A stretch of 64,000 nt of DNA. Source: Pseudomonas oryzihabitans. Lineage in GTDB: Bacteria > Pseudomonadota > Gammaproteobacteria > Pseudomonadales > Pseudomonadaceae. The first letter of the stretch is position 1; each line of letters opens with the position of its first letter. Below are positions 48,068-64,000 of the stretch, in pieces. The stretch is from assembly GCF_001518815.1 (NCBI RefSeq), contig NZ_CP013987.1:1715001-1779000 (forward strand), read 5' to 3'. The translations under genes were made by a program, and so were the position numbers. Below the pieces are notes generated by a model, which was not told the origin of the DNA, ran no database searches, and worked only from the letters and a program-made list of their open reading frames with translations.

Positions 48068-48670
48068 GGTAGGTTGGGTTGAGACGGCTCCATCGTCGAA
48101 GCCCAACGTTGGCGCTGTTGGGCTTCGCTAGCGCTTAACCCAACCTACGAAGCTCCATGAGTGATCGGCTGATCGCGGCCATGGGCCGCTCCTACGTGCT
48201 GACTCCTGTAGGAGCGGCCCATGGCCGCGATACCCAATACCATCATTTGCATCGGCGGACCGCCTTGGCCTCGACCAACATTGGCGCTGTTGGACTTCGC
48301 TAGCGCTCAACCCAACCTACGAAGACCCATGAGTGATCGGCTGATCGCGGCCATGGGCCGCTCCTACGTGCTGACTCCTGTAGGAGCGGCCCATGGCCGC
48401 GATACCCAATACCATCATTTGCATCGGCGGAGCGCCTTGGCCTCGACCAACATTGGCGCTGTTGGACTTCGCTAGCGCTCAACCCAACCTACGAAGACCC
48501 ATGAGTGATCGGCTGATCGCGGCCATGGGCCGCTCCTACGTGCTGACTCCTGTAGGAGCGGCCCGTGGCCGCGATACCCAATACCATCACCCAAATCGGC
48601 GGATCGCCATGGCCTCGACCAACATTGGCGCTGTTGGACTTCGCTAGCGCTCAACCCAACCTACGAAAAC
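48068..48670. repeat. Palindromic element followed by three tandem 172-bp REP-containing units
   Basis: A GTAGGTTGGG-type palindrome (48068-48149) is followed by units that begin CAACCTACGAA at 48141, 48313 and 48485, ending at 48656, each exactly 172 bp. Every unit holds a convergent pair of the ATCGCGGCCATGGGCCGCTCCTAC element and a TTGGACTTCGCTAGCGCT half-palindrome. Open frames inside are repeats of each other and are not genes. Together with 47842-48067 this fills the codA-GNAT gap. Confidence 0.9.
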
Positions 48671-49156
48671 CTACCGCCCGCTTTCCGCGAAATCCCGTAG
48701 CGCCGCGCCGTCCAGGCGATAGCGCACCCACTCGCCCTGGGCCTTGGCACCGAGGCTTTCGTAGAAGTCGATGGCCGGGGTGTTCCAATCCAGCACGCTC
48801 CATTCCAGGCGGCCGCAATCATTGGCCACGGCCTCGCGGGCCAGCTCGCGCAGCAGGCCCTTGCCCAGGCCGGTGCCGCGGGCGATCGGGCTCACATAGA
48901 GGTCTTCCAGGTAGATGCCGTTGCGGCCCAGCCAGGTGGAATAGCTGTAGAAATACACCGCGTAGCCCACCACCACGCCCTCGTGCTCGGCGACCAGGGC
49001 GCGGGTCGGGGTGTCGGGGGCGAAGAGGGTGGCCTCGATCTGCGCCGGGCTGGCCAGCACCTCGTGGACGGCCTTTTCGTAGTCGGCCAGTTCGACGATC
49101 AGGGCATGGATACGGGCGGCGTCTTCGCGGCGGGCGGGGCGGATCTGGAGCGTCAT
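48671..49156 (-). CDS. GNAT family N-acetyltransferase
   Basis: A 161-residue GNAT enzyme with acetyl-CoA motif A region LEDLYVSPIARGTGLGKGLLRELA near 83-106 and a late segment WNTPAIDFYESLGAKAQGEWVRYRLDG. It resembles diamine/spermidine-type acetyltransferases in general layout, but the substrate is not assignable. It ends 15 bp from the 172-bp repeat array. Confidence 0.85.
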   Translation of the reverse strand: MTLQIRPARREDAARIHALIVELADYEKAVHEVLASPAQIEATLFAPDTPTRALVAEHEGVVVGYAVYFYSYSTWLGRNGIYLEDLYVSPIARGTGLGKGLLRELAREAVANDCGRLEWSVLDWNTPAIDFYESLGAKAQGEWVRYRLDGAALRDFAESGR

Positions 49157-49192
49157 GGGGGTCCTTGGCTAGGTCGCGGGGCGACGACGACC

Positions 49193-51295
49193 TCAGGAGG
49201 TAGCCGTCGCCCGGTGGGCTGCCCGGGACAGCATGGCGGCGACCTGCGCGGCCAGCTGGTCCAGGGTGAAGGGCTTGGTCATGAGTTCCATGTTACCACC
49301 CAGAAAGGCCGTCCTACTGAGCGCGCCCTCGGCATAGCCGGTCAGGAACAGCACCGGCAGCCGTGGTCTGAGCTGCTGGATCACCTCCGCCAGCTGGCGC
49401 CCATTCAGGCCCGGCAGGCCGACATCGGTCACCAGCAGGTTCAATTCGGGGATCTGCTCCAGCAGGCGCAGCGCGGTCTTGCCTTCGGCCGCGCTCCAGA
49501 CGCGATAGCCCAGGGCTTCCAGCGCCTCCTGGTTGACCAGGCGCACGGCGTCGTCGTCTTCCACCAGCAGGATGGTTTCGCCGGCGCCCTGGGCGAATTC
49601 CGCCGGCGTGGACCGCTTCGGCTCGGCGTTCTGCTCCGCTGTCGGCAGGTAGACGCAGACCCGGGTGCCGCGCTCGTTGCTGGCGATGGTCAGGCGGCCA
49701 TTACTCTGCCGGGCGAAGCCATATACCATCGACAGGCCCAGCCCCGTGCCCTGGCCCTGCGGCTTGGTGGTGAAGAAGGGTTCGAGCACCTTGCCCAGCA
49801 GCCGCTCCGGGATGCCGGTCCCGGTATCCAGGACCTCGATGCGGACATAGTCTCCCGGCACCAGGGCATCGTCCTCGGTCCCCTGTGCGGTAACGGTGAC
49901 CAGGGAGGTCGCCAGGTTGATGACCCCGCCGTCCGGCATGGCATCGCGGGCGTTGATCACCAGGTTGAGCAGGGCGTTCTCCAGCTGATTGGCGTCGGCC
50001 AGGATCCAGGGCAGGTCATCGGCAAGGGCCAGCGTCACCGAGATCTGCTCGCTCACCGTGCGTTGCAGCAGTTCCTGCAACGCCAGGATCAGTTCGTTGG
50101 CGCACATGGGCCGGGATTCCAGCGATTGCCGGCGCGAGAACGCCAGCAGCCGCTGGGTGAGCGACGCCGCCCGATGCGCCGAGTGCTGCGCGGCCTCCAT
50201 GTACCGCTCCAGGCCTTGCAGCTGGTTCTTGCCCTTGATCCGCATCAGATCGAGCGCGCCCAGTACCCCGGTCAGCATGTTGTTGAAGTCATGGGCGATA
50301 CCGCCAGTGAGCTGGCCGACCGCTTCCATCTTCAACGACTGCCGCAGCTGCTCTTCGGCGCGGCTGCGCTCGGTGGTTTCCCGTTGCAACTCGCTCAGAG
50401 TGTGGGCGAGGGTGCGGGTTCGTTCCGCCACCTGGGATTCCAGTTCTTCGTTGAAGCGCCGCAAGGCCAGTTCCGCGCGCTTTTCCTCGCTGATGTCGGC
50501 GATCACCGTGGTCGCGCCGATGATCCGCTGAGCCTCGTCGTGCAAGGGCACCGCGCTCACGCGCAGCCAGGATTCCTCGCCCGCATCGTTGGTGTGATAG
50601 AAATCCTGCCCCTTCACCCGCTCGCCCCGCAGGGCCCGCGCCCCGGGGAATTGATCGGGCTGCAGCAGCCGCCCGGCGGTATCCAGGGCGGCCCAGCGCA
50701 GCGCCTCCTCAGGCTGCCGAGACGGGATCTGCTGGCCGGACACATGCTGCTCATAGAAGGGGTTGCTGACCAGGGTGCGGCCTTCGCTATCCATGAAGGC
50801 CACGCCGACCGGCAGGTTCTCCAGCAGCGTCTGCATGCGCTCACGTTCCTGGGCGAGTTCGGTGAGACGATCGCGCATCTCGAACTGGCGCAGGCGTGAG
50901 CGCCAGGCGGCCGCGACGCTGCTCAGCAGGGAAGCACCGCTCAGGGGCCGTTCCAGGATCACCAGATTGGTCGCCGCCGCGGGCAGCTGACGGCGCAGGA
51001 GATCATTGCCCCGTCCCGAACGCTTAGAGTCCGACGCCAGCAGCACCAGCGGAATGTCCGACCAGGTCGGCTGCCGCTCCAATGCCTCTGCCAGGGAGGT
51101 CATGTCCTGGCGCAGGGCCTCCTCGGTGAAGACGATGATCCCGATGTCGTCGCCGAGCGCTGCCGCCACCTCGTCCAGGGTGGACAGGTAGCGGGTGTGA
51201 TAGCCCTGGGTGAAGAGCCGCTGCAGGCTGGCTGCGTCACCTCGCAAGGGCGCGCAGATGATGAGCTCGCAGGACGGCGCCGCTGTCTTCGTCAA
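49193..51295 (-). CDS. Hybrid histidine kinase with PAS and receiver domains, coupled to KaiC
   Basis: A 700-residue protein. Residues 1-135 look like a degenerate receiver-type domain (LIICAPLRGD...LVLLASDS) without a clear phospho-acceptor. A coiled linker precedes a PAS domain (about 155-275), then HisKA with His335 in [11 protein letters not shown] and HATPase (N-box NLVINARDAMPDGG). The C-terminal receiver has an acceptor in LLVTDVGLPGLNG. No membrane segment is seen, so it is cytoplasmic. Its start overlaps the kaiC-like stop by 4 bp, so the two products are probably made together and act in one pathway. Confidence 0.87.
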   Translation of the reverse strand: MTKTAAPSCELIICAPLRGDAASLQRLFTQGYHTRYLSTLDEVAAALGDDIGIIVFTEEALRQDMTSLAEALERQPTWSDIPLVLLASDSKRSGRGNDLLRRQLPAAATNLVILERPLSGASLLSSVAAAWRSRLRQFEMRDRLTELAQERERMQTLLENLPVGVAFMDSEGRTLVSNPFYEQHVSGQQIPSRQPEEALRWAALDTAGRLLQPDQFPGARALRGERVKGQDFYHTNDAGEESWLRVSAVPLHDEAQRIIGATTVIADISEEKRAELALRRFNEELESQVAERTRTLAHTLSELQRETTERSRAEEQLRQSLKMEAVGQLTGGIAHDFNNMLTGVLGALDLMRIKGKNQLQGLERYMEAAQHSAHRAASLTQRLLAFSRRQSLESRPMCANELILALQELLQRTVSEQISVTLALADDLPWILADANQLENALLNLVINARDAMPDGGVINLATSLVTVTAQGTEDDALVPGDYVRIEVLDTGTGIPERLLGKVLEPFFTTKPQGQGTGLGLSMVYGFARQSNGRLTIASNERGTRVCVYLPTAEQNAEPKRSTPAEFAQGAGETILLVEDDDAVRLVNQEALEALGYRVWSAAEGKTALRLLEQIPELNLLVTDVGLPGLNGRQLAEVIQQLRPRLPVLFLTGYAEGALSRTAFLGGNMELMTKPFTLDQLAAQVAAMLSRAAHRATATS

Positions 51296-56091: not shown

Positions 56092-56350
56092 CTCTTCGCC
56101 GCATACCTGCTCACCATCATCCCCAGCCTTGATACGGCGTTGTTCCTGCGCACCGCTGCCACCGATGGTCGCGCCTAGGCCTGGCGTGTGGCCTTGGGAT
56201 AAATGCTAGCTGCCTGCCGTGAGGCGCTGCCGTTGCCTTCGACCTGGGTATGTTGCTGGCGGTGTTAGCAATGTCCTCAATCCAACGGTCGGCGTCTTCT
56301 CTCTATTCTTCCTGCTCCAGTTCATGCTCAAGGCCAATCCCCGATGCCTG
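56092..56350 (+). pseudogene. Decayed LysE-family exporter fragment
   Basis: Two fragments of a LysE/RhtB-type exporter survive. The first reads YLLTIIPSLDTALFLRTAATDGRA and then a stop (about 56098-56169), matching the family's conserved PGPDTALVLRTA region. The second, in another frame about 56250-56330, reads SNVLNPTVGVFSLFFLLQF, matching the NLLNPKVALFFLAFLPQF region. The stretch between is shortened and full of stops. The decay suggests this stretch is under relaxed selection next to the island. Confidence 0.65.
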
Positions 56351-57000
56351 TACCTTCGACCTGATCGGCCTCCACGTCGTTTTGCGCCTGATCTGACCTA
56401 GACCCTAACAAGCCCACCCGCACGACGGGAGCAGTGCTAAGCACGAACGCCGTCAGCTGATCGCTTGAGCGTGCGCCAGGCGTGGTCTGCCGTTCGTGGT
56501 GAGGCTGGTGTTGAGTCGGTGGTGGAGGGGGGTCGTGCTCCTGGCCGTAGTGCCAAGGGAGACGCCTAAGACGATAAGGCCCGCACTAGGCGGGCTTCGA
56601 TGTGATCCTTGCGGACCAAGTTGGTCGAGCGACTACGTCAATACTCAGCTCTGAATCCCCCGTAAACATAAGGCTTTAAGAGGTCTATTTGGGCTAGGCA
56701 TACACAGGGGCATACACGGAGACTTTAAGATGTGGTTGCTTCGCCAGGCCTACCCGAAGCAGAAAAGAAAGCTACGAAGATGTGCCCTACGCTCCGTCTG
56801 TGAGGAGATCCATAACGCTCATCGCCCAATCTTGATTCGAACCAGTAGCTGAAACGTCTGGCTTAGAGCGCCTTCCAAAAGGCCGCAGTAGTGAAGGGCA
56901 TACACTGAACGTTCGTCAGTTGTCAGATGTTGACTAGAAAGACTGTGAGATGTGTAGCACATTGCTCCTTTCACTTCTTACCTAAGCAAGGACGCAAAAG
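56351..57000. other. Gene-poor junction region before the AT-rich island gene
   Basis: No gene is seen. A hairpin GCCCGC-ACTAG-GCGGGC at about 56579-56596 resembles a terminator core, and CATACAC occurs three times (near 56700, 56711 and 56900). Composition shifts from host-like to AT-rich towards 57000, as at an island boundary. I could not define an attachment site. Confidence 0.4.
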
Positions 57001-59652
57001 ATGATTGGCTCGTGTTGGAATAAGTGGGATCTGCATATTCACTCGCCGTTTACTAATTTGAACAATGGTTTCAAATGTGAGGTTGAACAGTACGTCGCCA
57101 ATATTAAGGAAAATAGCCTAAGTCTGCTTGGTGTTACAAACTATTGGTATTTTCAAGAGAATGAGCTAGAAATTATCAGAGAGGAGTTAAGAAGACAGGG
57201 CTGCTCTACTACTGTTATTGGAAATTTGGAGTTCAGAGTTGCGCAGCCAAACAAACAAGGCGACTGGATAAACGTTCATTGCCTATTTTCAGAGAGTTTG
57301 AGTACCGCTCAAATAAACGCAGTGGTATCCAGGCTTAAGCTAACAAATACCACAAAAGATGATCTCGTAATTTACTGTTCAGAAGCTGATTTTGCCACCA
57401 AAACTATTGGTTGTGATGATGCGATAGTAGACTTCAAAAGTCTCTGCGAACATATGGAGAGTAATCTGGTCTTTGGTAGGGATTACCTTATCGCTATATG
57501 TCCGAATGGGTATGGCGGCTACAGGCCTGATATCAACGAGGGACGCTCTCGAGCTATCGCTTCGGAGATCGATAAGAAAGGTCAAGTCCTGTTCGGACGT
57601 CCACAGGATAGGGATTTTTTTCTTAGCAGCACTCGATATGAGGGAGCTACCGCGAAGCCCATATTTTTTTGCTCAGACGCGCACCGTTTGGATCAGATTG
57701 GTACCCAATACTCCTGGGTTAAAGCAAAGCCCAATTTTCAAGGTTTAAAGCAAGTGCTTTTCGAGCCGTCGGATCGTATCTATCAGACGGATGATTTTGT
57801 TGAGAACAGCTTCATCAAACCGTATTTCGATAGCATTGAGATTGAGGGCCCTATATTCCAGGGGCAAGAGATCTCGTTCAAGAAACAAAATATACCTTTA
57901 AATAAAAACATGATTGCCATAATTGGCGGGCGAGGAACGGGGAAAAGCCTGTTTCTCGATGCGATGCATTCTAGGCTAGCTGTATGCTATGGCCACAAGC
58001 GAGTGAGAGGGGTGTCGGTTGAAAACCTACGTATCAGGGTCTCTCAAGGTGGAGACCTAATAAATTTCGATCAGACCTCTACAGTTCCTTATCCGTACTT
58101 GCATGTTTCGCAAGGCGAGATTCACGAGTTCGCGAAAGACCCTTCGGTACTTAGTTTGGAGATAAAAAAGATGCTTGGCCTGCGTCAACGGCCATTCGAT
58201 CCTGCTCTGTCCGAAGAGCTCATGGAAAACATGGGTAGGTACCGCTCGTTTATTGATTACTGGGGCGCTGTTGACACTAATGGATCCGCAATAAACAAGC
58301 CTGATTATCAGCAGAATATTATCAATATTAATTCGCAGTTAATTGCGACTCTTACAAATGAGCAAAACGCTGCTCTTATATCTCGATATCAGGATAATAA
58401 TAGGTTGCTCAATGAGCAGCGCGCATTCCTGTCTACTTCTAATGAAATTAAATCCTTTATAGAAAGGACCGTCATTGGGCTAAATGATAGGATTTCGGCA
58501 TATAATGGCTCTGCATATGCTATCAGCAAATCTCCTCCACTTGGTTATACGGATGTCTTGCAAGCGATAGCGGCAAACGTAGCTCACACCGAGACTTCGG
58601 TAGCCGTTTTGGCTGCGCAGAATGAGGAAATTAAGGCAGAGTTTGCGCAAAAAGGCATCAAGCAAGATGTTTCCTCTCTGCTGGGTAAAGTTAACGAATA
58701 TCGTCTAAATATTGATAATGCAAATGCAAAGCTACAGGAAATACAAGGTCGTACCTCGCAGTATTTCTCGGAGCAAAAGAGACGTGCGGAAATAGCTGCA
58801 AGTTACGATACCTATCTTGAGAGCTTGCGTGGCGAAGTCGATATTGCTTATGCGTCCCTGCTGGCACCCAACGCAGATTGGAATGCTGAACAGAATGAGC
58901 TTGTACAGAGCATACTAAAGGATATTCAAGTATCAGGTTCAATTCTGTTTGATAAGGGGGCTTTTTATAGCGGTCTTGAGGAGTGTGTGAATAGAGGTAA
59001 ATTTCGTGCTTCGGCAGGAAAGTCTACTTCTGAAAGGTTGGCTGAGACCTTTAATGTTCATAATAAATCTGACTTCTTCAAGATGCTTATGGGGCACAAG
59101 CTTATTCAGTTGGGCGATCAGCTGGTGTCTCTTGAAGACTTTTTTTGGAGTGATGATTATTTTAACCAAGGTGGCCGATTCGAGCTATTTGATTATCTCT
59201 ACTCTCCGTCTCGTATTAAGAACTATTTGAAAGTGAATGCTGAGTTCTCTTATAAAGGGAAGTCGGTTGAGAAGTTGTCCGTTGGGCAGCGGGGCACATT
59301 TTACGTTTGCCTGAAGTTGGCTACAGATCCTTTTGGGAGTCCTTTCGTATTTGATCAGCCGGAAGATGATTTGGATAATGGCTTTATAATGGGTCAGTTA
59401 GTACCTTTGTTTAAGCAGATAAAGAAGTATCGACAAGTTATAATCGTCACCCACAACGCGAATCTTGTTGTCAACTCGGACGCGGAACAGGTAATTGTCG
59501 CGGAAAACGATGGCGAAGTTGTTAGCTATGTCTCAGGAGCCCTTGAGGAGGGAGATGTCCGCGGGGGGATTGGTATCAGATCCATGGTGTGTTCCATCTT
59601 GGAGGGTGGCCATGAAGCGTTCGCTAATCGTGAGAAGAAATATGGACTCTGA
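57001..59652 (+). CDS. TrlF-like PHP-domain/ABC-type ATPase, candidate defence protein
   Basis: An 883-residue, AT-rich gene unlike its neighbours. The N-terminal ~260 residues form a PHP-like metal-hydrolase domain: DLHIHSPF (His12, His14), NVHCLF and FFCSDAH (Asp226, His228). The rest is an SMC/ABC-type ATPase with Walker A GGRGTGKS (309-316), helical middle, signature-like LSVGQRG (759-765), Walker B FVFDQPEDDLDN (782-793) and His818 in VTHNAN. This architecture fits the TrlF family as I know it. Similar nuclease-coupled ATPases are frequent in defence islands, so nucleic-acid cleavage gated by the ATPase is a reasonable hypothesis. It stands alone on its strand. Confidence 0.82.
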   Translation: MIGSCWNKWDLHIHSPFTNLNNGFKCEVEQYVANIKENSLSLLGVTNYWYFQENELEIIREELRRQGCSTTVIGNLEFRVAQPNKQGDWINVHCLFSESLSTAQINAVVSRLKLTNTTKDDLVIYCSEADFATKTIGCDDAIVDFKSLCEHMESNLVFGRDYLIAICPNGYGGYRPDINEGRSRAIASEIDKKGQVLFGRPQDRDFFLSSTRYEGATAKPIFFCSDAHRLDQIGTQYSWVKAKPNFQGLKQVLFEPSDRIYQTDDFVENSFIKPYFDSIEIEGPIFQGQEISFKKQNIPLNKNMIAIIGGRGTGKSLFLDAMHSRLAVCYGHKRVRGVSVENLRIRVSQGGDLINFDQTSTVPYPYLHVSQGEIHEFAKDPSVLSLEIKKMLGLRQRPFDPALSEELMENMGRYRSFIDYWGAVDTNGSAINKPDYQQNIININSQLIATLTNEQNAALISRYQDNNRLLNEQRAFLSTSNEIKSFIERTVIGLNDRISAYNGSAYAISKSPPLGYTDVLQAIAANVAHTETSVAVLAAQNEEIKAEFAQKGIKQDVSSLLGKVNEYRLNIDNANAKLQEIQGRTSQYFSEQKRRAEIAASYDTYLESLRGEVDIAYASLLAPNADWNAEQNELVQSILKDIQVSGSILFDKGAFYSGLEECVNRGKFRASAGKSTSERLAETFNVHNKSDFFKMLMGHKLIQLGDQLVSLEDFFWSDDYFNQGGRFELFDYLYSPSRIKNYLKVNAEFSYKGKSVEKLSVGQRGTFYVCLKLATDPFGSPFVFDQPEDDLDNGFIMGQLVPLFKQIKKYRQVIIVTHNANLVVNSDAEQVIVAENDGEVVSYVSGALEEGDVRGGIGIRSMVCSILEGGHEAFANREKKYGL

Positions 59653-60102
59653 AAACACTTAGCGAATCGACGGTTACTGCAGGGATCCGCAGGGCTTGCC
59701 TGCATCCTGAATAGCGCATAAGGGCTAGTGCTAGCGCTAGTTTGAGCTACGTGCAGGGGTGCAGAAAAAGCGACACATTTAGCCCGCAGGTGTGGCGGGG
59801 GGACAACGGCGCGCGCCGGGTACAGAGCCCTTCGGCGCGGCCCCTGGCGGCCGAGGTGTGGGACCGGCTGCTCGCACGTCTCCACGGCGCCCGCCGTCGG
59901 CCTTTCGCTGGCCAGGATAGGGTGATCGGTGCAGTCAGTCGGCTCCGCAGCCTGTGATGCTCCACAGGCGCAGCTCTCCATCCAGCGGGCAGGGGTCTGA
60001 CCTGATCGGACTCCCTGCAAGGCGCGTAGCGCGTCGATGCGGGCCTTGGCGGCGGCACACGAAAAGGCCGCCCGTAGGCGGCCTGTCGCTGGCCAGGAAG
60101 AG
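59653..60102. other. Intergenic region with duplicated tail sequence
   Basis: No gene is seen between the ATPase and the coiled-coil gene. GGCCTTTCGCTGGCCAGGA at 59899-59917 recurs with one change at 60080-60098, next to the terminator at 60065-60084. This suggests a duplicated 3' flank. Confidence 0.5.
60065..60084 (-). terminator. Terminator of the island replication operon
   Basis: AGGCCGCC and GGCGGCCT with a 4-base loop; the minus-strand reading continues into TTTTCGTG. It lies 20 bp after the stop of the coiled-coil protein gene. Confidence 0.75.
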
Positions 60103-60885
60103 CTAGGCGCTGTGCTGCTGATCTTGTCGCTCGAGCAGCGCCTGGGCCTCGGCTCGCTGGCGGTTCAGCACGAGGACATTGGTTGCCCGCCCCGTCAGTT
60201 CGTAGGCCGTGAGGTCGAGTGCCTGCAAGGTCTGCTCGAGCGGATCCGCCTTGGCAGGCTCTACGGCTGCCGCTGCTTCGTCCACAAGCTTGGCCAAGGC
60301 TCGCTCCATACGTCCCCGTGCGGCCTGCTGGCGCTCGGCTTGGCCTTGGGCAGTTGCGCCGTTGCCGGTGATGTCTTCTCTGATTACCACGTGCAGGTGC
60401 TTGTCCTCCTGGCGCTGCATCAGCCTCAGCCAGGTGCGGCCCTCGGCCGTGGCGAACAGCGCCGCCGATGCAATGGCGAGGCGGTGATCGCCATAGGCCG
60501 CCCTGGCCTTCTCCTGGGTACTGTCATACGTCCGGCGAGCATAGGCCGTTTCCACCTGAGCCAGCTGATAGCTCGGCTCCAGTTCGGCCGCCAGCTGCTC
60601 GTAGCTTTCGGCCAGCTCACGTTTGTCTTGCTCGTCGCGCTTCGCCTTCAAGACCTCTAGGGTCAGCTCGCCATCTGCGTCACGGAAGGCCGCTCGCCAT
60701 TCACTGCCGGCCGTCTCCGATTCGTGCCGGGCAGCGCGGGCGGTGGCGCGGTGTTTCTCCAGACGCTTGCCCAGGGTGACCAGAGTTTCGCGTTGGGCCA
60801 GGTAGCTAGCCTTCGCCTCGTCATGGATGACCAGGGCAGCAGCAACGTCTTCGGGGAGGGAGTTTGTTTGGGTCTCGGTATTCAT
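60103..60885 (-). CDS. Coiled-coil hypothetical protein of the island
   Basis: A 260-residue, Ala/Glu/Arg-rich, almost wholly helical protein beginning MNTETQTNSLPEDVAAALV. Long heptad-like stretches (about 25-125 and 195-255) predict coiled coils. It has no catalytic motif I recognise. The start at 60885 avoids an extension of poor quality to 60936. It is the last gene of a minus-strand set with the DUF927 protein and primase, separated from the former by the repeat-rich region. Confidence 0.65.
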   Translation of the reverse strand: MNTETQTNSLPEDVAAALVIHDEAKASYLAQRETLVTLGKRLEKHRATARAARHESETAGSEWRAAFRDADGELTLEVLKAKRDEQDKRELAESYEQLAAELEPSYQLAQVETAYARRTYDSTQEKARAAYGDHRLAIASAALFATAEGRTWLRLMQRQEDKHLHVVIREDITGNGATAQGQAERQQAARGRMERALAKLVDEAAAAVEPAKADPLEQTLQALDLTAYELTGRATNVLVLNRQRAEAQALLERQDQQHSA

Positions 60886-61038
60886 GGGGGCTCTCGTTTT
60901 GGTGCTGGGGGCTCGTGACCGACCGTGCTCGAGCACTGCCAGCAGTCGCCATTGGGGTTGTGTGGATCAATTGAAGAGAGGGGCGTCAAGCACTTCGTGC
61001 CAGAACACCCTTGTTCGTGTCTGAAAACGAAAATCGAC

Positions 61039-61284: not shown

Positions 61285-63075
61285 TCATGCTTGACTCTCT
61301 CCTTCGGTCTCCAGGCGCTCGGGGTCGATGACGTAGAACCGAGCATTGCCTCCGCCTGGCGTGCGATAGCGTTTCGTGCGCCGGGAGGTGCGGGCCTCTT
61401 CATCCACTTTGGCGAGCGCATTGGCTTCCACCAGGGCGCGCAGGATCCGCTCCTTGCCGTAGCCGGCCGCCGCCTCGAGCAGTGCGGGCGCGTTGAACAG
61501 GTACAGCCGGCGATCGTCGATCAGCTCGTAGAAGCCGGCCCGATCGCGCACGGTCGACGCGGCGTGCTCGGCGTGGATCCAGGAGAAGCGGCTGTCGCCG
61601 TGCAGGGCGATGAAATCGCCAATACCGCGCAGGATCTGGCGCTCCTCGGCGTTGCCATCACCCATCCTGGCGAGCCATTCGCCGAACAGCTGGCGGCAGG
61701 CGTTACCCGCCGCGCCGACCGGCCAGCCCAGTAGCCCGCGTTCCGCCGCCAGTTCGCCGGCCAGGGCGAGCACGGCGAAGCGATCCGCCACCCGGCCAGC
61801 CTGGGAGCTTTCAGTGCGGAAGGTGGCGCGCACCTGGCGAAAGCGCTCGAGTAAGTCTTCAGGCGTCTTGAGCAGGCTTTCCACGAACGCTGGCCCCAGG
61901 TGGCCGTAGTCTTGGCCCACGGCATCGGTCAGCAACCGGTGGAATTCCTGGCCGGTCAGGCCATGCACGTCGTCGAACGCGCGGAAGGGGCGAGTGCCGG
62001 CATTCACGTCCACCATGCGCAGCTCCGCGCCGGCATGGGCGCCGTTGCCGGCAATGGCGGCGTGCTCGGAGAGCGAGCGCTCGCCGCTGGACAGCGCCAG
62101 GACGCGCCAGGTCAGCTTGGCGCGACCCTCGCGCTCGCGGGTCATGGTGCTCTTGCCCATGCCGTTGGCGATGGCGTAGGCCATCTCCTGGACGCGCTTG
62201 GGGTCGGCCCGCTTGATCTCGTCCAGGATCAGCACCGTGTCATTGCGTGAGGCCGCCTCGATCTCCACGCCGCCCTTGGACACGTCCCAGGACGCAGCAA
62301 AGGTGCCGGGGTTGCCCCAGACCGACGCCGCGAGTAGCTGTGCCAGTGACTTGCCGCTCGAGGAATCGCCTACCAGGTGGATGCCGCCGCCGTTGATACC
62401 CAGCTTGGCCAGTAGCGGCCCGGCGAGGGCGCAGCAGATGGACAGGATCAGCACCGGATTGCCCAGGCAGTAGGGCGCTATCTGCGCTTGCCAGTTGGTC
62501 AGCGTACCCTTGCTGGTGAAGAGGTTCACCGCCCGGCCGGAGTCTTGATAGCGCACGTTGTCGCCGCCGATCACCCGCGATGGCAGGACAAAGGCGCCGG
62601 ACTCATGCCAGCCCGGCTTGGTGGTGGTGGCGATCACCCTGGCCGGCGCGTGGTAGCTGGCGAGGTACGGCGCGACGTGGCGGCGTTGGTGGTACTCGAT
62701 GGCCAGGCCCTGGCGCATGAGCGCCTTGAGCACCTCGTCGGCCTTGCCGGCCAGGGCTTCCATGGGCATGACCCACTCAATGCGCTTGCCGCGATAGCGA
62801 AAGCTGAGCAGGCGACCAATGCTGCCGTCCTCGGTGTTCACCGTCTCGGCGTCGACGTGCAGCGGCGAGCAGATCCAGTAGTCGAAGGGCACCGGCTTGT
62901 CTTCCGGACCGGTGTGCTTGACGCCGTGGTACCAGGTGCCTTCGCGGAATTGCTTGCCCTCCTTGAAGACCGGGCGGTCGTAGACGGCAAAGCACGGCCG
63001 ATCCAAGGTGTCACGGTCCGGGGCCTTGGGTTCGCCGACCAGGCTCAGGCCGCTTTTTGCTTCGGGCGTGCTCAT
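61285..63075 (-). CDS. DUF927 domain protein, helicase-like replication ATPase
   Basis: A 596-residue protein with the DUF927 core: GDSSSGKS Walker A near 237-244 and Walker B-like VLILDEIKR near 281-289. A segment YAIANGMGKSTMTREREGR comes next, in the position of sensor-1 and arginine-finger-like residues. DUF927 proteins act as replicative helicase-like ATPases in phages, satellites and integrative elements. It overlaps the upstream primase gene by 4 bp (ATGA), so the two are coupled as a replication module. Confidence 0.85.
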   Translation of the reverse strand: MSTPEAKSGLSLVGEPKAPDRDTLDRPCFAVYDRPVFKEGKQFREGTWYHGVKHTGPEDKPVPFDYWICSPLHVDAETVNTEDGSIGRLLSFRYRGKRIEWVMPMEALAGKADEVLKALMRQGLAIEYHQRRHVAPYLASYHAPARVIATTTKPGWHESGAFVLPSRVIGGDNVRYQDSGRAVNLFTSKGTLTNWQAQIAPYCLGNPVLILSICCALAGPLLAKLGINGGGIHLVGDSSSGKSLAQLLAASVWGNPGTFAASWDVSKGGVEIEAASRNDTVLILDEIKRADPKRVQEMAYAIANGMGKSTMTREREGRAKLTWRVLALSSGERSLSEHAAIAGNGAHAGAELRMVDVNAGTRPFRAFDDVHGLTGQEFHRLLTDAVGQDYGHLGPAFVESLLKTPEDLLERFRQVRATFRTESSQAGRVADRFAVLALAGELAAERGLLGWPVGAAGNACRQLFGEWLARMGDGNAEERQILRGIGDFIALHGDSRFSWIHAEHAASTVRDRAGFYELIDDRRLYLFNAPALLEAAAGYGKERILRALVEANALAKVDEEARTSRRTKRYRTPGGGNARFYVIDPERLETEGESQA

Positions 63076-64000
63076 GCCGGCACCTCCCAGCGTCCACTCT
63101 GCCAGAGGTGCAGGTCGTTGAAGTCGGATAGCTCGGCCGGGCCGTCATACGGCCAGTCCGGAAAGACCACCAGGGCCTCCGCCGCGGCGGCCGCCCGGTT
63201 CGCCGCGGCGCGGCCCGGATTGCCCAAGGTGAGGCGGTCGTCGTCGCCGGCGATCACCAGCTCGACGCGGCGGCCGAAGCGCTCGCGCATGGCCAGGGCC
63301 ACCGGTTTGAGGTTGCCGGCGTTGAGCGCGCAGACCACCGGCGCGCCGGTGTGGTGGTGCAGGGTGGCCCCGGTGGCCCAGCCCTCGCAGATGTACAGCC
63401 GGGCGCCGTCCTGGACCTTGCCCAATGGGCAATAGCAGCCCTGCACACGACCCCCGGCCAGAAAGCGCTTATTGCCCTGGCCATCGATGATCTGCAGGTT
63501 GACCAGGCGTCCGTCCAGGACCAGGGGCACGGCCAGCCGGCCGTGCGAGATCTGGCGCAGTCCGAACGGTTCGACCTGCTTGGCCTGCAGGTAGGTGTGC
63601 AGCCGATCCACCGGCTTGCCATGCTGCCAGAGCAAGGCCGCCTGGCGCGCCGCAGCGGTCTGCTTGTCGTGCAGCTGCGCCTCGGCGTCGCGCTGTTGCT
63701 GCTCGAGGCGCTGGCGAGTGGCCAGGGCGTCGGTCGAGGGTTGGCCATCCCCCCTGGCGAGCGCTTCGAAAAGCCCCAGGCCTAGACGTTGATCGATCTC
63801 CCGCGCCGCGTCGCCCTGACGGCAACCGCGTAGGTAGGCCAGCAGTGATACCAGGTCGCCGCCGTGGGCGGCGCTGTCGGCGAAGTCGTTCCACTTGCCG
63901 CTGTCCAGGGAGACGCCGAAGGAACCGGCCTGGCGATCGCCGCGTGCGGCGTTGGGCGCGACCCACTCGCGGCCCTGGCGACTGCCTTTCGGCAGCCACT
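63072..64000 (-). CDS. Toprim-domain primase-like protein, C-terminal part (runs off right edge)
   Basis: At least 309 residues are visible with the 5' end beyond the window. From the edge inward it reads GKWNDFADSAAHGGDLVSLLAYLRGC (zinc-ribbon-adjacent primase region). A Gln/Arg-rich coiled linker comes next, then a Toprim domain with LYICEGWATGATL (catalytic Glu) and ELVIAGDDD (acidic triad). This is the layout of primase/helicase-type Toprim proteins of phage satellites and islands. A TTG at 63635 could start a shorter product, but the upstream coding sequence is intact. Confidence 0.83.
   Translation of the reverse strand, partial: WLPKGSRQGREWVAPNAARGDRQAGSFGVSLDSGKWNDFADSAAHGGDLVSLLAYLRGCRQGDAAREIDQRLGLGLFEALARGDGQPSTDALATRQRLEQQQRDAEAQLHDKQTAAARQAALLWQHGKPVDRLHTYLQAKQVEPFGLRQISHGRLAVPLVLDGRLVNLQIIDGQGNKRFLAGGRVQGCYCPLGKVQDGARLYICEGWATGATLHHHTGAPVVCALNAGNLKPVALAMRERFGRRVELVIAGDDDRLTLGNPGRAAANRAAAAAEALVVFPDWPYDGPAELSDFNDLHLWQSGRWEVPA

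Follow-up and report, generated by a model that had tools for sequence, protein, structure and literature searches.

A TrlF-family PHP-ATPase gene as probable defence cargo of a P4-like satellite in Pseudomonas oryzihabitans

The subject of this analysis is a trlF-family gene at positions 57001 to 59652 (plus strand) of a 64,000-nucleotide stretch of Pseudomonas oryzihabitans DNA (contig NZ_CP013987.1, positions 1,715,001 to 1,779,000; hereafter the window). The explanation that we consider probable is that this gene by itself makes up a defence system against phages (mobile elements), carried as exchangeable cargo next to the cos-like segment of a P4-like satellite and acting through a PHP domain licensed by an ATPase. 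Taken by itself, the defence function is quite likely; an ATPase-gated PHP nuclease chemistry, suggested by analogy with the E. coli protein Ppl, is an evenly balanced proposition. A candidate single-gene defence system had already been proposed from the DNA letters alone (the sequence-only reading), and the context assembled here, namely a slot for defence genes, a cos-like segment and relatives in the psu-int hotspot of E. coli, favors that proposal.

The open reading frame (ORF) lies exactly where the sequence-only reading had placed it; it is intact and comprises 883 codons from an ATG start, with AAGGA 8 nt 5' of the ATG. Its product matches the NCBIfam profile of TrlF (NF045780) with 526.6 bits at a cut-off of 350 (E = 2e-157, profile positions 2-944 of 944) and, judged by this score, is a full-length member of the family, with which it shares the combination of a PHP domain and an SMC-like ATPase as well as T-[DN]-Y at PHP motif II. 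It is the only gene to pass this cut-off within its own genome and among 13 genomes of the genus. Since the family is already known by name, the gene is not categorically new. We infer that the name comes from the TRL operon of Photorhabdus (PMC7554251), where trlF stands with trlR and trlG, whereas trlF of the window is solitary satellite cargo. No directly adjacent same-strand gene that could form such an operon was seen at trlF, and the domains assigned to TrlG in PMC7554251 (AlbA_2 or HATPase) had no Pfam match among the nine satellite ORFs scanned. The assignment to TrlF stands despite the missing trlR and trlG because the operon is not part of the NCBIfam model. In the literature searched we found neither a function for the TrlF family nor any link to phage defence; the study of the Photorhabdus operon was the sole experimental work on a trlF gene to turn up. 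A promoter scan was uninformative (7 found vs 5.0 expected).

Membership in two related families was considered and rejected. Ppl (NF042955, PADLOC PDLC02208), an anti-phage PHP-NTPase of E. coli, resembles the window protein in being a single gene, in the order of PHP and ATPase and in the DQPEDDLDN sequence of Walker B and the D-loop. It is also the top PADLOC model for the window protein (90.1 bits), and a Ppl-like protein is 43% identical to TrlF over 131 residues of the Walker B region; the Ppl profile, however, scores it at 111.6 bits where 1000 are required, and motif II reads TNY instead of TDH. Spaf_1101 (NF045781) has a related ATPase C-terminus, with a score (157.7 bits) well below the cut-off of 475. 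Canonical TDH at motif II was found in three Ppl-like proteins (all below the Ppl cut-off) and in another PHP protein of the same genome, which we take to be RNase AM-like, whereas the window gene has TNY together with CPNGYGG; two Ppl-like proteins show, by eye, AH at motif V. The solved structures matched were mostly Rad50/SMC/ABC ATPases, in the ATPase half (3aux, E = 1.4e-6), with a few other, weak matches. The Rad50/SMC enzymes have no PHP domain, and no chain in the PDB matched the whole window protein at the limits used.

The low G+C content and island location pointed out by the sequence-only reading are both borne out. The gene has 43.7% G+C against 66.2% in its flanks, and the island is a P4-like satellite of ~12.6 kb inserted in tRNA-Pro (56635-69272), which runs beyond the window end to about window coordinate 69272. 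This extent follows from the empty site of a sister genome, G011, which pairs with 56562-56634 of our sequence and then directly with 69273 (the tRNA end); the distance from the left-flank gene to mobA is 13.8 kb here vs 1.3 kb in G011. The border was taken from the empty site, no exact direct repeats of at least 14 bases being present at the island ends. None of 500 Markov resamples scored above 27, against 34 for the displaced copy of the terminator at the left border. The left part of the satellite is organized as follows.

56562..56634, no strand: left border of the satellite, with the displaced tRNA-Pro terminator and attL (TTGGTCGAGCGACT), placed by the G011 empty-site alignment and the att copies
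57001..59652, plus strand: trlF-family gene, 883 amino acids, with a PHP domain and an SMC/Rad50-like ABC ATPase (ORF list; NF045780 profile score)
59752..59830, no strand: cos-like segment starting 99 bp after the trlF stop (blastn matches to P2-like phages; seven sister inserts)

The same satellite backbone (~88-93% nucleotide identity) occupies the same tRNA in three sister genomes, and the place of trlF is taken there by other genes: a methylase (81.9 bits), a RiboL-PSP HEPN protein (Pfam) and a GmrSD_N protein (NsnA, 183 bits) in G010, two SIR2-type proteins (PDC-S25, 281.2 bits; Aga_SIR2, 35.6 bits) in G008, and a Hachiman system (HamB, 1005.4 bits; HamA, 434.6 bits) in G006. That trlF fills a slot holding defence genes in three sister satellites supports its candidacy as a defence gene. 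Four more genomes (G009, G007, G012 and G003; loci L116-L119) have shorter tRNA-Pro inserts, in which the cos-like segment lies between two att copies and blastn found no satellite-integrase-like stretch. PADLOC models matched a helicase (369.2 bits) and DUF2290 (55.3 bits) in G007, PDC-M71A and M71B (329.2 and 304.3 bits) in G012, and SIR2 and HerA (567.6 and 825.9 bits) in G003. Altogether, PADLOC matches at E <= 1e-5 occur in six of the seven cos-bearing sister inserts. The site is empty in G011 and has no cos-like segment in G001, and the left-flank gene had no match in G002, G004 and G005. The tRNA-Pro slot of the genus is also a source of more defence candidates. As a separate observation, the short att-cargo-cos-att inserts could be minimal defence cassettes that carry cos and are mobilised in trans, or else what is left of complete satellites; the cargo of the G009 insert (L116:1754-3793), a 293-amino-acid protein and a 382-amino-acid protein with a weak TPR-type match, is a candidate uncharacterised defence system.

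TrlF is also found in satellites of Enterobacter and E. coli. The psu-int locus of P4 satellites is described as a hotspot of anti-phage systems in PMC9122126, whose main text does not name TrlF. In an Enterobacter genome (L028) the TrlF gene is flanked by Psu (292.8 bits) on one side and by an integrase of the P4 type on the other. An L028-type gene (~89% nucleotide identity) is present in 11 of 5426 E. coli genomes, always on the chromosome, with a P4 integrase and tRNA-Sec adjacent in 11/11 and psu directly upstream in 10/11 (an IS21 element takes its place in the eleventh). The window protein and the TrlF of E. coli strain E308 share 52% identity over 889 aligned columns. One more E. coli TrlF gene is near an e14-type prophage integrase at icd, and others are on plasmids. 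The psu-int hotspot (in E. coli and Enterobacter) and the window satellite are alike in holding variable defence cargo, TrlF included, next to cos; in the window satellite, however, the slot is bounded by attL on one side and the cos-like segment on the other, and the integrase stands at the opposite end of the element. With TrlF located next to cos in the defence slots of two different satellites, its function can be put to a direct test in a laboratory strain of E. coli.

The cos-like segment is kept in the seven sister inserts. When 50,697 phage records were searched with it by blastn, 13 matched at E <= 1e-3, each of them a P2-like phage of Pseudomonas or Burkholderia. In Burkholderia phage Mana the match spans the cos predicted by PhageTerm, which aligns at window positions 59800-59807, and in Pseudomonas phage Dobby the matching segment is ~2 kb from the portal and terminase genes. 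A second copy (93% identity over 74 bp) is present elsewhere in the same genome (C1:2379171-2388000, L151), where it adjoins P2-type portal (57.7 bits), terminase (203.7 bits) and GPO scaffold (352.5 bits) genes. Because a matching cos-like copy stands beside P2-type genes, this resident P2-like prophage is a candidate helper of the satellite, and a putative cos shared with a P2-like helper is indicated by similarity.

The remainder of the satellite agrees with its assignment to the P4 type. A P4-type integrase (PF13356/PF00589) adjoins the tRNA-Pro, as in a P4 satellite, and Pfam matches to Ogr_Delta (42 bits) and HTH_17 (40.7 bits, a candidate AlpA-type regulator) provide the activator and the regulator of such an element. 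Toprim_3 and DUF927, the latter of which we take to be helicase-like, are on two separate ORFs rather than in one alpha-like primase-helicase protein. Psu had no Pfam match among the nine satellite ORFs scanned (some small ORFs lay outside this set, and sid and epsilon were not searched for separately).

60103..60936, minus strand: satellite gene of 277 amino acids, function unassigned (no Pfam match), in the backbone common to the sister satellites
61285..63075, minus strand: satellite gene with DUF927 (PF06048, 245.8 bits)
63072..64000, minus strand: primase-like satellite gene (Toprim_3), running to 64136 past the window
right of the primase-like gene: Ogr/Delta finger, HTH_17, P4-type integrase and tRNA-Pro to 69349

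The residues expected in both halves of the protein were compared across a 64-row alignment, made of 59 proteins matching the query full-length, the window protein and four proteins from other searches. The 59 were drawn from 79 genome-scan loci (the best 80 of 538 relatives), after 20 of the 79 with fewer than 800 amino acids between match start and stop had been dropped; the near-identical rows L059/L081 and L040/L041 were kept in all counts, and one row starts after H12/H14, hence the count of 63 for motif I.

57001..57855, plus strand: PHP domain, about residues 1-285 (boundary set by us from alignments; PHP_C match under its cut-off)
57034..57042, plus strand: PHP motif I, H12-I-H14, both histidines in 63/63 rows covering the region
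57136..57144, plus strand: PHP motif II, T46-N47-Y48 replacing T-D-H (Y48 in 61/64 rows, N47 in 25/64)
57229..57231, plus strand: PHP motif III, E77 (64/64)
57277..57279, plus strand: PHP motif IV, H93 (61/64)
57499..57519, plus strand: CPNGYGG (C167-G173), at the place of the motif V histidine of TDH relatives
57676..57684, plus strand: PHP motif VI, D226-A-H228 (D226 and H228 in 64/64)
57925..57948, plus strand: Walker A, GGRGTGKS, residues 309-316 (K315 in 64/64)
59275..59292, plus strand: ABC signature, LSVGQR, residues 759-764 (by alignment)
59344..59370, plus strand: Walker B, FVFDQPEDD, residues 782-790 (D785 and E788 in 64/64)
59452..59454, plus strand: switch histidine H818 (64/64)

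The outer PHP metal ligands as well as Walker A, signature, Walker B and switch histidine are therefore intact, just as the sequence-only reading had it, and conserved across the 64 rows. Its remark on an altered middle PHP motif is right as far as TNY is truly present, but the alteration is not peculiar to this gene (Y48 in 61/64, N47 in 25/64). TNY as the mark of a one-off degenerate gene is ruled out, being common to 25 of the 64 aligned relatives.

The changes at motifs II and V go together. Within the 64 rows, the motif V histidine is present in 3/3 TDH members vs 1/61 others (that one being an unrelated histidine), an association with a Fisher p of about 1e-4 before any correction for descent, and GYG at motif V in 24/25 N47 members vs 2/39 D47 members. 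In PHP enzymes the first metal is bound through H12, H14, E77 and D226, the second through the histidine of motif V and the third through that of motif II. Seen in this way, TNY members would keep one complete metal site and part of a second, and the changed motifs II and V may mean a metal number or substrate differing from those of Ppl. The alignment under-counts both TDH and the loss of H-x-H because of the long relatives dropped: seven of the 20 dropped loci are long ORFs with an N-terminal part that the query does not match, and six of these have TDH at motif II (the seventh starts after the motif). T-[DN]-Y is thus the usual, not the sole, state of the wider family. Among the six, L045, L086 and L088 have H-x-H. 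The N-termini of the other three (L070, L074 and L100) read Q-M-Q, Q-V-H or Q-V-Q at this place, a further active-site state.

The four classes of motif II (25 TNY, 25 TDY, 11 NDY including one MDY row, and 3 TDH) need 12 changes on the tree of the ATPase half vs 4 (minimum 3) on that of the PHP half; the latter was built without the columns of motifs II and V, the ATPase tree is a quick version, and several branches are long. The PHP domains of the three TDH members fall into a single clade (100/99), yet they are joined to three ATPase backgrounds, and a single clade of their ATPases is rejected by the approximately unbiased test (p-AU 1.2e-6; the TDH group was picked after a tree had been seen, with long branches in play). 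For these two reasons, module exchange was preferred and repeated independent reversion to TDH was dropped. Fifteen of 2016 pairs combine a PHP identity of at least 45% with an ATPase identity of at most 28% (e.g. 58/21 for L046/L062 and 53/19 for L067/L090). PHP and ATPase identity are correlated over the full set of pairs (r = 0.80), so that the exchange is an exception within a history that the halves share. Overall, the comparison indicates that PHP modules have been swapped between ATPase lineages of TrlF, which we present as new (no literature search was aimed at it). The swapped modules amount to a set of natural active-site variants with which the role of the PHP domain could be studied. 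A tree of the whole protein places the window gene with the Enterobacter satellite gene L028 and two genes from Pseudomonadaceae (98 in the Shimodaira-Hasegawa-like approximate likelihood ratio test), and in the ATPase-only tree the smallest starred set around it has three rows. Two further pairs, L048/L076 and L040/L053, also show differing PHP and ATPase histories.

In the mechanism that we envisage, the SMC/Rad50-like ATPase would bind phage DNA ends or replication/recombination structures, its ATP state would license the N-terminal PHP domain, a metal-dependent phosphoesterase, and the PHP domain would then cut or trim phage or cell nucleic acid, stopping the infection. The analogy is with E. 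coli Ppl, which is described in a review (PMC12904381, 2026) as a 3'-5' exonuclease on single-stranded DNA restrained by nucleoside triphosphates. A broader version, tentative and possible rather than probable as a whole, would have TrlF as a plug-in defence family, with an SMC-like sensor ATPase and interchangeable PHP modules (TNY/CPNGYGG, TDY, NDY, TDH/HAG), a TNY module in which the ligands for one metal are gone and whose chemistry or substrate is unlike that of Ppl, and a spread as cos-linked satellite cargo, here also in short att-cargo-cos-att cassettes.

Several points weigh against a defence gene with an ATPase-licensed PHP nuclease. No protection test of TrlF was found in the literature searched, and PADLOC 2023 yielded no TrlF model. 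The position in the slot is by itself no proof of defence, since seven of 19 cloned P4 cargo sets conferred phage resistance according to PMC9122126. The slot survey covered 20 of 60 listed ORFs, chosen as likely cargo and without a matched control; some of the PADLOC models are generic (methylase, kinase) or mere candidates (PDC), and no PADLOC model matched the G009 cargo (L116). Of the 11 E. coli copies, one carries a frameshift. In Photorhabdus, where trlF is within a temperature-restriction operon, no trlF mutation was selected, according to PMC7554251. Finally, three of the TDH relatives dropped from the alignment (L070, L074 and L100) have no intact H-x-H, and the PHP domain of the window protein, with no histidine ligand at motifs II and V, could have little or no nuclease activity. 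The last point leads to an alternative that we regard as unlikely, in which the PHP domain has given up catalysis, leaving an ATPase sensor that carries a metal-binding scaffold, with defence triggered otherwise or via a partner. Sixty of the 61 Y48 members of the 64-row set also have no true motif V histidine (the three TDH members keep both), and H-x-H is lost in the three more distant relatives just named. On the other hand, dead domains usually lose their ligands, whereas H12, H14, E77, D226 and H228 are present in every row covering them and H93 in 61/64, and no neighbour family that could supply a partner recurs in more than three close relatives (simple ORF calling).

It is less likely still that trlF serves the satellite itself, through interference with the helper phage, packaging or maintenance, rather than general host defence. 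The 99 bp between trlF and the cos-like segment, the Ogr/Delta activator and the resident P2-like prophage with its matching segment would suit such a role, but sister satellites with the same backbone hold unrelated defence genes in the slot, and close relatives are also found on plasmids, near the e14-type integrase and in a restriction-modification operon. A role in stress or growth arrest that has nothing directly to do with phages, on the model of the TRL operon of Photorhabdus, is very unlikely: deletion of that operon allows growth at 36 C (PMC7554251) and the family name apparently comes from it, yet the mutations selected in that work did not include trlF, the TrlG domains are absent from the nine satellite ORFs scanned with Pfam, and the genomic context points to phages. 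That the protein has an ordinary role in DNA repair or housekeeping and is mobile by chance is scarcely credible; some homologue records are titled 'DNA repair protein' and one relative adjoins SbcC/SbcD genes, but relatives are rare in Pseudomonadaceae, their mobile contexts are scattered with no constant neighbour seen, and their G+C is mostly below that of the flanks (counts for both follow). The reading of trlF as a single-gene, cos-adjacent defence cargo is therefore the one that we retain.

With the window protein as query, relatives at E <= 1e-40 were found in 3 of 398 Pseudomonadaceae genomes, its own included (the family label of this set being inferred from the G251 locus, a Pseudomonas koreensis contig). 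Among plasmid records, 1107 of 72,556 have a TrlF-type match, 106 of them covering at least 80% of the query; TrlF-type ATPases are named in many genomes and plasmids. At the loci of relatives the gene mostly has a G+C content below that of its flanks (12 of the 16 close loci and 35 of the 36 others), and close relatives also occur on plasmids and in a restriction-modification operon. The neighbourhood survey that the sequence-only reading had called for revealed reverse-transcriptase (DRT3-type) or restriction genes near some close relatives and no common housekeeping neighbourhood among 19 of them. In its tallies (the first 25 of 93 Pfam families and the first 25 of 173 PADLOC models, with ORFs called by length only), phage integrase is the commonest Pfam family (4 of 122 neighbour ORFs of the 19 close relatives), and the neighbour families listed include one or two each of restriction, methylase and DRT3-type genes. 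The idea of a constant partner gene was given up, as no neighbour cluster occurs in more than three of the 19 under this length-based ORF calling; one cluster, whose printed member reads as a type I methylase, recurs in 11 of 83 loci of all distances. Three individual loci may be mentioned. In Deefgea chitinilytica (L036:4896-9955), SbcD and SbcC are directly upstream of the TrlF gene and an ISP-type restriction enzyme is downstream; in Pluralibacter gergoviae (L033:12873-16260), two reverse-transcriptase genes of DRT3 type directly follow it; and the 22-kb Microcystis phage Mwe-JY31 (L021:2980-5682) encodes a TDY-type TrlF-like protein of ~25% identity.

Two minor observations concern other parts of the window. 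Beside the left border of the satellite, positions 56098-56423 hold the remains of a sequence that can be aligned at 75-78% with part of G011 and that appears to be broken here; by eye, this part of G011 looks like a LysE/RhtB-type exporter. Farther to the left, the ORFs 48221-48475, 48393-48647 and 48565-49203 have near-identical starting peptides 172 bases apart, i.e. they mark a short direct-repeat array (48221-48647).

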